Positions 13,276 through 19,002 of a DNA stretch of 64,000 nt are shown piece by piece. The translations under genes were made by a program, and so were the position numbers. The DNA is from Flavobacterium branchiicola (lineage in GTDB: Bacteria; Bacteroidota; Bacteroidia; Flavobacteriales; Flavobacteriaceae), in NCBI RefSeq assembly GCF_018383905.1, contig NZ_JAGYWA010000002.1, forward strand, positions 62,001-126,000, written 5' to 3'. Under the pieces are notes generated by a model. That model saw only the letters and a program-made list of their open reading frames with translations, was not told where the DNA came from and ran no database searches. How positions within the stretch are numbered: the first letter of the stretch is position 1; each line of letters opens with the position of its first letter.

Positions 13276-15144
13276 ATGCTAGAGCAAAATCAATACAACG
13301 AAGATAATATTCGTTCACTCGATTGGAAGGAACATATTCGTATGCGTCCGGGTATGTACATCGGGAAATTAGGGGACGGATCATCACCGGATGATGGTAT
13401 TTATATTCTTTTAAAAGAGGTTTTAGACAACTGTATCGATGAGTTCGTTATGGGTGCCGGAAAAACTATCGAAGTAAGTATTAAAGATAAAACAGTTTCT
13501 GTTCGTGATTACGGACGTGGAATTCCGTTAGGTAAAGTGGTCGATGTCGTTTCGAAAATGAATACCGGTGGAAAGTATGATTCTAAAGCTTTCCAGAAAT
13601 CAGTTGGTTTGAACGGTGTCGGAACAAAAGCGGTTAATGCTTTATCTAATTATTTCCGCGTAGAATCGGTTCGTGATGATAAACAAAAAGGAGCGGAGTT
13701 TTCGGCAGGAAATTTAGTACTTGAAGAAGAAGTTATCGATACTACAAAGCGTAAAGGGACAAAAGTAATTTTTACGCCAGACGAAACGATTTTCAAAAAC
13801 TATAAATTCCGTTTAGAATACGTAATCAAAATGGTTAAAAACTATTGTTACTTAAACAATGGTTTGACAATTATTTTTAATGGAGAAAAATATTATTCAG
13901 AAAACGGACTTCGTGATTTATTGGAAGAAACCATTAACGAAGAAGATTTAGAATATCCGATTATTCATTTAAAAGACCATGATATCGAGGTTGCGTTAAC
14001 ACACAGTAAAACGCAATATAGTGAAGAATATCACTCTTTCGTAAACGGTCAGAATACTACACAAGGAGGAACGCACTTAGCGGCTTACCGTGAGGCGGTT
14101 GTGAAAACAATTCGTGAATTCTACAATAAGAATTTCGAAGCATCAGACGTTCGTAAATCGATTGTAAGTGCGATTAGTATTAAAGTTATGGAGCCTGTTT
14201 TTGAGTCTCAGACCAAAACTAAATTAGGTTCTACCGATATGGGGTCTGATGATGGAACTCCTGCGGTTTCTGTTCGTACTTTCGTTAATGATTTTGTGAA
14301 AACGAAATTAGATAATTACCTGCATAAAAATCCAACAACTGCCGAGGCTTTATTACGTAAAATTCTTCAGGCAGAACGTGAGCGTAAAGAATTATCCGGA
14401 ATTAGAAAACTGGCGACAGATCGTGCTAAAAAAGCCAATCTTCACAATAAAAAATTAAGAGATTGTCGTGCGCATCTTCCAGATACCAAAAACCCAAGAA
14501 ATTTAGAAAGCACGCTTTTTATTACCGAGGGAGATTCGGCTTCCGGATCAATTACTAAATCGCGGGATGTAAATACACAAGCGGTTTTCAGTTTGCGTGG
14601 TAAGCCTTTGAATTCATACGGAATGTCTAAAAAAATCGTGTATGAAAACGAAGAATTCAACTTGCTTCAAGCCGCATTGGATATCGAAGACGGATTAGAA
14701 AAATTACGTTACAATAACATTGTAATCGCAACCGATGCCGATGTCGACGGAATGCACATTCGTTTGCTTTTGATTACTTTCTTTTTACAGTTTTTCCCAG
14801 AATTAATCAAAGAAGGACATTTGTATATTTTACAAACACCGCTTTTCAGGGTTCGTAACAAGAAAGAAACAATTTACTGTTATTCTGAAGAAGAAAGAAA
14901 AGACGCAATTGAAAAGTTAAAACCAAAGCCGGAAATCACGCGATTTAAAGGTTTAGGAGAGATTTCGCCAGATGAGTTTAAGAACTTTATTGGAGATACA
15001 ATTCGTCTTGATCCAATTATGATGGATAAACATACTTCGATTGAGCAGTTGTTATCTTTCTATATGGGAAAAAATACGCCGGATAGACAAGAGTTTATTA
15101 TCAAGAATCTGAAGGTTGAGATTGATGAGCTTGAAGAAGCTTAA
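13276..15144 (+). CDS. parE: DNA topoisomerase IV subunit B
   Basis: 622-residue ATPase subunit of topoisomerase IV, which decatenates daughter chromosomes. The GHKL ATPase has EVLDNCIDE (48-56), DYGRGIP (78-84) and [11 protein letters not shown] (111-121). The TOPRIM domain has EGDSASGS (418-425) and the Mg-binding DADVDG (487-492). The SLRGKPLNS segment (439-447) and pairing with the downstream parC-like gene argue for ParE over GyrB. A 20-nt gap separates it from the nuclease gene, which then leads to parC. Confidence 0.94.
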
Positions 15145-15164: not shown

Positions 15165-16259
15165 GTGCCAGACGGTCTTCAAAATAAAGTCATTTTTCAG
15201 CAAGTTGCCGAGTTATTGCAAAATGCCCGACAACAGGTTTTGCGTACCGTAAATTCAACAATGACAATTACTTATTTTGAGATTGGAAGAATAATTGTTG
15301 AGGAAGAGCAAAATGGAAAAGATAGGGCTGAATATGGAAAAAAGCTTTTGAAAAGTCTTTCTCAACAATTAACTAAGGAATTTGGAAAAGGTTTTTCGGT
15401 AGTTAATTTAGAGAATATTAGAAAGTTTTATTTAATTTACTCAAATTCCGAGTCACTGACTCGTATTTTACAAATTCAAAAAACCCAGTCACTGACTGGG
15501 GAATTCAAATCAGTAAATACGCAGACAGTGTCTGAGAAATTTGATAGTCAAACATTATCTTCTTTTTTTAAATTGACTTTTACTCATTACGTCTTTTTAA
15601 TGAGAATTGATGATGAAAAAGAAAGACGTTTTTACAAAATCGAATCTGAGAAACACAATTGGAGCGTACGCGAATTAAAACGCCAATATGATTCAGCACT
15701 TTATACCAGATTAGCTTTAAGTCGAGATAAAGAAGGAATATTAAAACTTTCAGAAAAAGGCCAAATTATTGAAAAACCAAAAGATATAATTAAAGATCCT
15801 TATATACTTGAATTTTTAGGATTGCCCGAATTGAATCAATATTCGGAATCTCAATTAGAAGAGGAAATTATCAATAAACTGGAGCATTTCTTACTAGAAT
15901 TAGGTCATGGTTTTACTTTTGTTGGAAGACAGCAAAGAATTACTTTTGATGATAAACATTTTAGAATTGATTTAGTTTTTTACAATAGGATATTGAAATC
16001 GTTTGTTCTTATTGATTTGAAAATAGGAGAATTAAAACATCAGGATTTAGGTCAAATGCAAATGTATGTCAATTATTATGACAGAGAAATGCGCTTGGAA
16101 GATGAAAATAAAACGATCGGAATTGTGCTCTGCCAAAATAAAAGTGAAGCTGTAGTTAGATATACTTTACCTGAAAACAATGAACAGATTTTTGCCAGTA
16201 AATACAAAACCGTTTTACCAAGTGTTGAGGTTCTAAAAGAACTTCTTGAAAACAAATAA
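15165..16259 (+). CDS. YhcG/DUF1016-type PDDEXK nuclease-domain protein
   Basis: 364 residues, GTG start at 15165. The N-terminal DUF1016_N domain (about 8-150) has TYFEIGRIIVEEEQNG and LENIRKFYLIY. The C-terminal PDDEXK nuclease-like domain (about 210-355) has RIDLVFYN (D269), LIDLKIG (D284 and K286) and DLGQMQMYV, the expected (D)-(D/E)xK-Q arrangement. Residues 96-131 form three 12-residue repeats whose DNA holds exact palindromes. The gene is sandwiched between parE (20 nt) and parC (22 nt), so it is probably in one transcript. YhcG proteins act in nucleic-acid processing and have been linked to mobile or restriction loci; the role here is unknown. Confidence 0.88.
   Translation: MPDGLQNKVIFQQVAELLQNARQQVLRTVNSTMTITYFEIGRIIVEEEQNGKDRAEYGKKLLKSLSQQLTKEFGKGFSVVNLENIRKFYLIYSNSESLTRILQIQKTQSLTGEFKSVNTQTVSEKFDSQTLSSFFKLTFTHYVFLMRIDDEKERRFYKIESEKHNWSVRELKRQYDSALYTRLALSRDKEGILKLSEKGQIIEKPKDIIKDPYILEFLGLPELNQYSESQLEEEIINKLEHFLLELGHGFTFVGRQQRITFDDKHFRIDLVFYNRILKSFVLIDLKIGELKHQDLGQMQMYVNYYDREMRLEDENKTIGIVLCQNKSEAVVRYTLPENNEQIFASKYKTVLPSVEVLKELLENK
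15449..15534. repeat. Three palindromes at exact 36-nt spacing inside the nuclease gene
   Basis: Perfect odd-length palindromes at 15449-15463 (7-bp arms CGAGTCA/TGACTCG), 15484-15500 (8-bp arms CCCAGTCA/TGACTGGG) and 15522-15534 (6-bp arms CAGACA/TGTCTG). Their centres are 15456, 15492 and 15528. The spacing of 36 nt is 12 codons, so the protein repeats ESLTR.., QSLTG.., QTVSE... A decayed fourth unit (QTLSS) starts at residue 129-130. Confidence 0.85.
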
Positions 16260-16281: not shown

Positions 16282-19002
16282 ATGAAAGACGAAGAAGACG
16301 ATAACATAATTCCAAACGACGACGAAAATAATCAGGATGAAAACCAGATTGATGACAATCAGGATGGAGATGATGATGAGATTATTGAAGTAGATGCTAA
16401 AAACTTTGAAGGACAGCATTTTTACGAAAATCAGGAAGAAGAAGGCGAAGACGTTATTACAAAAGTAACCGGAATGTACAAAGATTGGTTCTTGGATTAC
16501 GCTTCGTACGTAATTCTGGAACGTGCTGTTCCTGCTATCGAGGATGGGTTTAAGCCAGTTCAGCGTCGTATTATGCACTCTTTAAAAGAGCTGGATGATG
16601 GTCGTTATAATAAAGTTGCCAATGTAGTAGGACACACCATGCAGTATCACCCACACGGAGATGCGAGTATTGGTGATGCCATGGTGCAAATTGGTCAAAA
16701 AGATTTATTGATTGACTGCCAGGGAAACTGGGGAAATATATTAACGGGTGACGGTGCAGCAGCTTCGCGTTACATTGAGGCACGTTTATCTAAATTTGCT
16801 TTGGAGGTTTTGTATTCGCCAAAAATTACCGATTGGGGAGTTTCATACGACGGACGTCGTGCAGAACCGAACAATCTTCCTGTAAAATTTCCATTGCTTT
16901 TGGCACAGGGAGCAGAAGGTATTGCGGTTGGTTTATCTACAAAAGTTTTACCTCATAACTTCAATGAATTAATTGATGCTTCGATTAAAATTTTAAAAGG
17001 AAAACCGTTTACACTTTATCCTGATTTTATGACACAAGGTATTGCCGATGTGTCTAATTATAATGATGGACTTCGTGGCGGGCGTGTGCGTGTACGTGCT
17101 AAAATTGCTCAGTTAGACAAAAATACACTGGTAATTACACAGATTCCGTTTTCGACCAATACCACAACTTTGATTGATAGTATTTTGAAAGCCAATGAAA
17201 AAGGTAAAATCAAAATCAAGAAAATTGAAGATAATACGGCTGCAGATGTCGAGATTTTAATTCATTTATTCCCTGGAGTTTCGCCGGATAAAACAATTGA
17301 TGCGTTATTTGCTTTTACTGCCTGTGAAACGTCTGTGGCACCTTTAGGATGTGTGATTGAAGATAATAAACCATTGTTTATTGGTGTTTCTCACATGTTG
17401 AGAATTTCAACAGAAAGAACGGTTGATTTATTACGTCAGGAATTAGAAATTCAGTTAGAAGAATTAAAAAATAAATGGCATTTCTCTACTTTAGAAAAAA
17501 TCTTCATTCGTGAAGAAATGTACATTGATTTCAAATTATATGGAGATAGAGAATCTTTATATAAATATTTATATGACAGATTTGAGCCTTTCAAAAAATC
17601 ATTCGTAAGAGAAATCAACGATGAAGATTTGCAAAGACTAACTCAGATTCCGATGATTCGTATTACTCGTTTTGACTCTGATAAAGCTGATGATTTGATT
17701 TCAAGGTTAGAGGAAGAAATGAAAGAGGTAGAATACAATCTGGAACATCTTACCGATTTTGCAATTGCTTATTTTACCAAATTAAAAGAGAAATACGGAA
17801 AAGGACGTGAACGTCAGACTGAACTTCGTGTTTTTGATAACGTTGAAGCGACAAAAGTAGTTCTGCGTAACACAAAATTATATGTAAACCGTGAAGAAGG
17901 ATTCGTAGGAACGAGTTTAAAGAAAGACGAATATGTAGGTGATTGTTCTGATATTGATGATGTTATCGTGTTTTTGCGAGACGGAACATTAATGATAACA
18001 AAAGTTGATGCCAAAACTTTTATTGGAAAAGATATTATACATGTTGCTGTTTTTGATAAGAGTGATAAACGTACGATATATAATATGATGTATCGTGATG
18101 GAAAATCGGGACCTTCTTATATAAAACGTTTCAATGTTACCGGAGTAACGCGTGATAAGGCTTACGATTTGACAAACGGAACAAACGGTTCACAAGTTGT
18201 TTACTTCTCGCATAATCCAAATGGTGAAGCTGAGGTTGTAACGATTTTATTGCGTCAGGTTGGGACGATTAAGAAATTGAAATTTGATATTGATTTTGCT
18301 AAACTGGCTATTAAGGGTCGTGGATCAAAAGGAAATTTAGTGACTAAATATCCGATCAAGAAAATCGAATTAAAAGAAAAAGGTATTTCGACTTTATTAC
18401 CAAGAAAAGTGTGGTTTGATGATACTGTAAAACGTTTAAATGTTGATGCGAGAGGAGAATTACTTGGCGAATTTAAACCAAGTGACAAAATTCTTGTAAT
18501 CAGTCAGGCTGGAAAAGTTAAAGTAATCATTCCGGAATTATCTACTCATTTTGAAGAAGATATGATTGTTTTGGAAAAATGGAAGCCTAAAAAACCTATT
18601 TCAGCAATTTATTACGATGGAGAAAAAGAACGTTATTTCTTGAAACGTTTCCTTGTAGAAAACGAAGGCAAGGAAGAAAGTTTTATTACAGATCATCCAA
18701 ATTCGCAGTTAGAAATTGTATCTACCGATTATCGTCCGATGGCACAATTGGTTTTTGCAAAAGTAAAAGGAGTTCAGAAAGATGATTTACATATTGATGT
18801 TGAGGATTTTATAGCTGTAAAAGGATTTAAAGCTTTAGGGAATCAATTAACGGCAGATAAATTAAAACAAGTTAATTTGTTAGAGCCACTTCCATATGAA
18901 GAGCCTGTTGAAGAAGTTCCTGAAAGACCAGAAATATCCGAAGATGATCCTGTCGAAACAGAACTAGACGACGATGGCCAGATTGGTCTTGTTCTAGACT
19001 AA
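16282..19002 (+). CDS. parC: DNA topoisomerase IV subunit A
   Basis: 906-residue DNA-cleaving subunit partnering ParE. The core begins near residue 62 (MYKDWFLDYASYVILERAVP), with GHTMQYHPHGDAS (117-129) and the catalytic Tyr164 in ASRYIEARL. A coiled tower and C-terminal beta-pinwheel follow. It is longer than E. coli ParC, partly through a very acidic N-terminal leader (residues 1-58, mostly D/E/N/Q) and an acidic C-terminal tail (EEPVEEVPERPEISEDD...). It lies 22 nt after the nuclease gene and has its own terminator at 19011-19043. Confidence 0.94.
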   Translation: MKDEEDDNIIPNDDENNQDENQIDDNQDGDDDEIIEVDAKNFEGQHFYENQEEEGEDVITKVTGMYKDWFLDYASYVILERAVPAIEDGFKPVQRRIMHSLKELDDGRYNKVANVVGHTMQYHPHGDASIGDAMVQIGQKDLLIDCQGNWGNILTGDGAAASRYIEARLSKFALEVLYSPKITDWGVSYDGRRAEPNNLPVKFPLLLAQGAEGIAVGLSTKVLPHNFNELIDASIKILKGKPFTLYPDFMTQGIADVSNYNDGLRGGRVRVRAKIAQLDKNTLVITQIPFSTNTTTLIDSILKANEKGKIKIKKIEDNTAADVEILIHLFPGVSPDKTIDALFAFTACETSVAPLGCVIEDNKPLFIGVSHMLRISTERTVDLLRQELEIQLEELKNKWHFSTLEKIFIREEMYIDFKLYGDRESLYKYLYDRFEPFKKSFVREINDEDLQRLTQIPMIRITRFDSDKADDLISRLEEEMKEVEYNLEHLTDFAIAYFTKLKEKYGKGRERQTELRVFDNVEATKVVLRNTKLYVNREEGFVGTSLKKDEYVGDCSDIDDVIVFLRDGTLMITKVDAKTFIGKDIIHVAVFDKSDKRTIYNMMYRDGKSGPSYIKRFNVTGVTRDKAYDLTNGTNGSQVVYFSHNPNGEAEVVTILLRQVGTIKKLKFDIDFAKLAIKGRGSKGNLVTKYPIKKIELKEKGISTLLPRKVWFDDTVKRLNVDARGELLGEFKPSDKILVISQAGKVKVIIPELSTHFEEDMIVLEKWKPKKPISAIYYDGEKERYFLKRFLVENEGKEESFITDHPNSQLEIVSTDYRPMAQLVFAKVKGVQKDDLHIDVEDFIAVKGFKALGNQLTADKLKQVNLLEPLPYEEPVEEVPERPEISEDDPVETELDDDGQIGLVLD

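Follow-up and report, generated by a model that had tools for sequence, protein, structure and literature searches.

Coding palindromes in a DUF1016/YhcG gene

The stretch of DNA analysed here, in the following called the window, comprises 64,000 nucleotides of Flavobacterium branchiicola (contig NZ_JAGYWA010000002.1, positions 62,001 to 126,000) and contains a DUF1016/YhcG gene with a series of short palindromes in its coding sequence. The gene (15165..16259, forward strand, 364 codons, GTG start) encodes a protein that lies above the Pfam cut-offs of both families of the group (PF17761 and PF06250, with 132.7 and 198 bits; E-values 1.2e-38 for DUF1016_N and 1.1e-58 for YhcG_C). It also matches the PADLOC profile PDC-S02 (candidate defence) with 2.7e-143.

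A sequence-only reading of the window had described three perfect palindromes in this gene at a spacing of exactly 36 nt and in a common codon register, and this description was borne out. Unit 1 (CGAGTCACTGACTCG, 15449..15463, centre 15456) has arms of 7 and codes for ESLTR; unit 2 (CCCAGTCACTGACTGGG, 15484..15500, centre 15492) has arms of 8 and codes for QSLTG; unit 3 (CAGACAGTGTCTG, 15522..15534, centre 15528) has arms of 6 and codes for QTVSE. All three are odd palindromes, and the one unpaired central base of each is position 1 of codons 98, 110 and 122, respectively. The fourth unit, QTLSS (15549..15563, centre 15555), is decayed as had been stated: the amino-acid motif is kept and only two of seven pairs are left. 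The reading had further taken the segment for a joint after the DUF1016 N-domain. This is not so; the segment lies within DUF1016_N (residues 14-182, 15204..15710, forward strand) and not between finished domains.

In the whole window there are ten odd palindromes with arms of at least 7 (eight of arm 7, two of arm 8), and two of them are in the segment of the DUF1016 gene. Synonymous recoding of this segment yielded a mean of 0.11 palindromes with arms of at least 6, compared with three observed.

Palindromes throughout the gene family

The survey drew on 80 homologous loci from one genome scan, 198 Bacteroidota genomes from a family search, E. coli, plasmids and viral contigs. The 202 HMM matches comprised 192 reading frames that differed in their 3' ends, and the 187 with a linker of 8-90 residues were kept. 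The segment examined was the stretch flanked by the anchors FY and W(S/T)HY. In the relatives the innermost pair may mismatch, so that the arms flank a 3-nt centre, mostly A/G-N-T/C. In 127 of the 187 genes the segment held at least one palindrome whose arms, flanking a 3-nt centre, measured 7 bp or longer. Altogether there were about 150 such palindromes (149 tabulated and one of arm 18), whereas 2.7 were predicted when each gene was recoded synonymously according to its own codon usage, and the remainder of the same genes, when scaled, gave 2.4. Thus such palindromes do not commonly arise from the amino-acid repeat alone, neither in the window gene nor in the family. The centre was codon position 1 in 158 of 162 palindromes with arms of at least 6.

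Because the surveyed sequences are related, they were clustered, and it is only in this clustering that kinship was taken into account. At 60% identity a palindrome was present in 47 of 66 representatives; with the threshold at 40%, at least one member had it in 10 of 11 clusters, and 7 of 11 representatives carried one. The spacing between units was 36 or 39 nt in 56 of 93 cases, and the repeat units measure 12-13 residues, the palindromes about 25-27 bp. The ends of the palindromes are A/T-rich; in fully paired units the left end is mostly ATT or AAA and the right end AAT. Distant relatives have the register, the 3-nt centre and the A/T-rich ends in common.

Two loci held further copies. In the frame starting near position 1900 of L075, a DUF1016 copy of divergent sequence, two palindromes (arms 9 and 8) are built on a different core, FPQLGGK. 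At about 485-530 of L107, 5' of an intact copy, there is an apparent remnant of a second DUF1016 gene with its own palindrome.

Complementarity is conserved, not sequence

The unit peptides vary among the relatives (ESLTR, QTVSA, SSLMT, ATLLR, KSLIS, NALRS, QQPVA; 51 combinations of flanking residue pairs in all), and the two arms change in step. When units were picked by the protein motif alone, 74 of 106 were fully paired at offsets 2-6, compared with 3.4 expected. In these units the codon for the same serine depended on the side of the centre: TCA was used in 30 of 32 cases on one side and TCT in 69 of 74 on the other. Homologues with the same motif hence mostly use codons that keep the pairing, and recoding seldom produces it, so that neither of the two outcomes named as refuting the earlier suggestion of non-neutral palindromes was observed; this suggestion has strong support.

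The shortest genes allowed a comparison with a fixed centre, which was set at a given distance from the conserved Trp, namely the one among eight distances that served each length class best; 71 of the 79 short-linker genes entered this set, length classes of fewer than three genes being left out. Here 449 of 497 cells were paired (217.9 expected), whereas with one arm slid at most 67 of 175 were paired in any class. Within genes, both members were paired in 277 of 407 comparisons of units with different letters at offsets 6-8. This hints at a role of pairing as such, for which a simple operator of two half-sites would have no need. It is thus the complementarity of the arms that is conserved, and not their sequence.

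A predicted ParB/Noc-like domain and its possible site

In two predicted structures the palindrome-coded stretch lies within a ParB/Noc-like DNA-binding domain that is fused to a PD-(D/E)XK nuclease; in the model of the window protein the palindrome-coded loop has low confidence. Pfam HTH_ParB gave weak matches in 17 of 57 members (alignment A3, E <= 1), the best with 2.7e-5 and the displayed scores of 19.4 and 20.4 being below the cut-off of 22.6. On the basis of the models, DUF1016_N is predicted to have a ParB/Noc-like DNA-binding fold, and the domain thereby gains a predicted identity; a 2005 study had reported no confident match of DUF1016_N to known structures (PMC1189080). The second domain, YhcG_C (residues 207-355, 15783..16229, forward strand), was found by its Pfam match and has an EndoMS/NucS-like predicted fold. 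D269, D284 and K286 were invariant in the 45 sequences compared. With the modelled fold and the catalytic acidic and Lys residues of PD-(D/E)XK enzymes, YhcG_C is a predicted nuclease.

In B.subtilis, a parS site lies inside spo0J. The ParB/Spo0J-parS and Noc-NBS systems would resemble the DUF1016 case in the DNA-binding fold that is predicted for the latter, and members of the ParB/Noc family bind palindromes as two-fold dimers (PMC7383237). Chromosomal parS, TGTTNCACGTGAAACA, is described as highly conserved (PMC7022226), whereas the interior of the DUF1016 palindrome varies and its complementarity stays. In addition, DUF1016 proteins, unlike ParB, have a predicted nuclease after the domain, and no Pfam match to the N-terminal CTP-binding domain of ParB was found in the four DUF1016 proteins scanned.

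A possible interpretation, which we put first although our confidence in it falls somewhat short of even, is that the palindrome is a coding DNA element kept by the complementarity of its arms and likely the site at which the encoded protein binds its own gene, limiting its own expression or activity. The DUF1016/YhcG protein would bind the palindrome through its predicted ParB/Noc-like domain; physical pairing of the arms in a hairpin or cruciform would be a likely requirement for binding; and binding would restrain the nuclease by autoregulation of its expression or its activity. A narrower version, which we regard as doubtful, is that the gene is addressed to itself, i. e. that the same approximately 25 bp code for the loop after the predicted recognition helix and form the DNA site of that domain. 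If this were true, target and reader would be one sequence, unable to evolve apart wherever the gene travels.

The element provides a first concrete substrate hypothesis for an uncharacterised nuclease family which is a candidate for phage defence. Three plasmid copies were found in defence surroundings (L215, 3935-5092; L216; L218), namely within a BREX cluster, with pglX and pglZ on either side, or within type I restriction-modification clusters. This agrees with the candidate-defence label of PADLOC.

DNA or RNA

The arms could also pair in the mRNA, and the resulting hairpin could govern translation or stability or be an RNA target of the protein. Centres of 3 nt and stems that vary are typical features of RNA hairpins, the centres found here are mostly of the purine-N-pyrimidine type given above, and the extragenic copies in E. 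coli (see below) sit just past stop codons. In 364 units, which were selected for pairing, a selection equal for G-U and A-C, G-U was depleted to 0.24 of expectation, as was A-C, and other mismatches were depleted to 0.20. Of 127 single mismatches 16 were G-U, compared with 53 A-C and 58 other. In the fixed-centre set G-U made up 9 of 48 mismatches, about the expected share, a count that speaks for RNA. An Rfam search gave no family above its gathering score, all matches at E <= 1 being below it. G-U is not clearly better tolerated than other mismatches, contrary to what is expected of an RNA stem. This favours an element that probably acts as DNA, and we consider the RNA hairpin an improbable alternative, on a par with the self-addressed version above.

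Copies outside the gene and the question of insertion

The yhcG gene of E. coli K-12 has three units, one of which has a 15-bp arm, AAAGATTTGGCAGAC(GCT)GTCTGCCAAATCTTT. All ten alleles read that retain the 3' end (L105, L136, L138-L144, L264) have an extragenic copy with its centre 28 nt beyond the stop codon of yhcG, and in L144 and L264 this copy shows a double change from TGCAGAC/GTCTGCA to TCCAGAC/GTCTGGA. In K-12 a further copy is present 28 nt past gltD, and five such sites lie within 8.4 kb of the yhcG locus. When E. coli genomes were searched by BLAST with the 3' copy, the number of places per genome had a median of 3 and reached 6; these are counts without positions. Outside this set, two extragenic copies of the palindrome type were seen 3' of one gene in L053 (5090-5290), and one just 5' of the start of a minus-strand gene in L157 (at about 1160).

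The palindrome could also be a recombination or insertion site and, as an attachment site does, mark the point of entry, exit or rearrangement of the gene. In E. coli CAVp367 (L265, 1588-1654) the gltD-nanQ gap lacks yhcG and holds in its place a 27-nt palindrome with exactly the sequence that unit 1 has in other strains; it could mark a point of insertion or deletion. A palindrome also lies at the end of two truncated alleles in E. coli and of a relic in Flavobacterium. In L137 (3001-3802) and L266 yhcG is cut off directly after the unit-3 palindrome and followed by a 306-nt gene that is annotated as transposase and has no Pfam match; the match extent of the truncated yhcG (query 1-406) occurred in 10 of the 60 matches listed. 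The two E. coli truncations adjoin an IS1 element or an annotated transposase gene, which speaks against a recombination site. The relic (L102, 1499-1642) lies between parE and parC and is cut at both ends, its 3' end being directly after a palindrome unit.

Its position is that of the window gene, whose neighbours on the same strand are a topoisomerase IV subunit B-like gene upstream (13276..15144) and a topoisomerase IV subunit A-like gene downstream (16282..19002), which we take to be parE and parC, respectively. Both neighbours are present in 29 of the 80 loci, indicating that the DUF1016 gene is often stable at that place in Flavobacterium. Among 27 Flavobacterium parE loci examined for empty sites the search motif failed in 15; the other 12 comprised eight empty gaps, two with the gene, one with a relic and one that was ambiguous. 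None of the eight gene-free parE-parC gaps (23-255 bp) held a palindrome. Moreover, the distances of the N- and C-terminal halves agree with each other (r 0.892) like those of the controls (0.921 and 0.803), so that there is no general shuffling of domains at the palindrome. Hence we regard a recombination site as rather unlikely, somewhat more so than the RNA hairpin.

The sequence-only reading had also proposed a palindromic element domesticated in frame. Two exact patterns were searched, both with ends in one orientation other than ATT...AAT. The first gave 19 places in the F. branchiicola genome, none of them a good palindrome by eye. The second matched in four of 40 genomes (the same one and 39 relatives), twice in a DUF1016 gene or relic and twice in poor palindromes. 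In 864 kb (16%) of the F. branchiicola genome, 17 palindromes with arms of at least 8 were located in open frames that had 150 or more codons. A DUF1016 paralogue held the longest of them, with arm 13 and its centre on codon position 1; the others had arms of at most 10 and no preferred frame. A dispersed mobile element of the type of Rickettsia palindromic elements (RPEs) or REP elements was therefore rejected, there being no such family in the pattern searches or the 864 kb, with E. coli searched only in part. This weakens the idea of domestication, and it is weakened further by the finding that the shortest genes, with a single unit, carry the feature too.

Possible upkeep without function

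The pairing could be kept up by mutation, if template switching repeatedly rewrote one arm from the other in a loop that tolerates change, with no function under selection. Such copying would yield complementarity with no preference for sequence or for G-U, and the low model confidence of the loop in the window protein would fit. Yet elsewhere in the same genes palindromes occur at background level only, and distant relatives keep the same register, centre and ends. Unit 1 of K-12 and unit 2 of another strain, moreover, have decayed without repair. We hold mutational upkeep to be unlikely, slightly more so than a recombination site. That the peptide motif alone is selected and the palindrome is a by-product has next to no chance of being right, for although Thr/Ser-Leu/Val-Ser/Thr cores recur in the unit peptides, this is contradicted by the codon choice in the motif-picked units, by the diversity of the peptides and by the palindrome copies outside genes.

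Relation to known palindromic elements

Like the DUF1016 units, RPEs are palindromes within reading frames; they are selfish elements of about 100-150 nt with many insertion places (PMC4316617), whereas the DUF1016 units are much shorter, restricted to one gene family and without a dispersed family in the sequence searched. PARCEL elements are bacterial tandem coding repeats with dyad symmetry as well, but form amphipathic repeats of 25 residues, most of them detected by DUF285, in varied proteins (PMC2996958), compared with the 12-13 residues found here; the DUF1016 proteins scanned had no Pfam match to DUF285 and do not belong to PARCEL. REP elements share the short palindromic repeats (20-40 bp) but are high-copy and extragenic (PMC3733652), while the DUF1016 element is found mostly in coding sequence and stays near its gene. 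In the mitochondria of Nematomorpha, inverted repeats in coding genes are compatible with function; these repeats reach 284 bp and are spread over several mitochondrial genes in four species from a single animal phylum (PMC6649704). Thus the known coding palindromes are mobile, bound to repeat proteins or organelle-wide, and the DUF1016 element keeps its place within a single gene family of distant bacteria.

Literature searches in the open-licence PMC library, outside of which most subscription papers lie, brought up no report of palindromes in DUF1016/YhcG genes. The element would be a conserved part of a coding sequence, maintained by complementarity and not by sequence, in distant bacteria including E. 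coli K-12. As a whole, the interpretation given in the sequence-only reading is partly supported: of its two ideas, the domesticated element has become less likely, and a site for the encoded protein, on DNA, is the one that we prefer.

The F. branchiicola genome also contains a dispersed inverted repeat, CTTTGTCAAAGTT...AACTTTGACAAAG, which was seen in L225 (8581), L229 (18196), L231 (12002 and 12620) and L250 (14373) and is unrelated to the coding palindromes.
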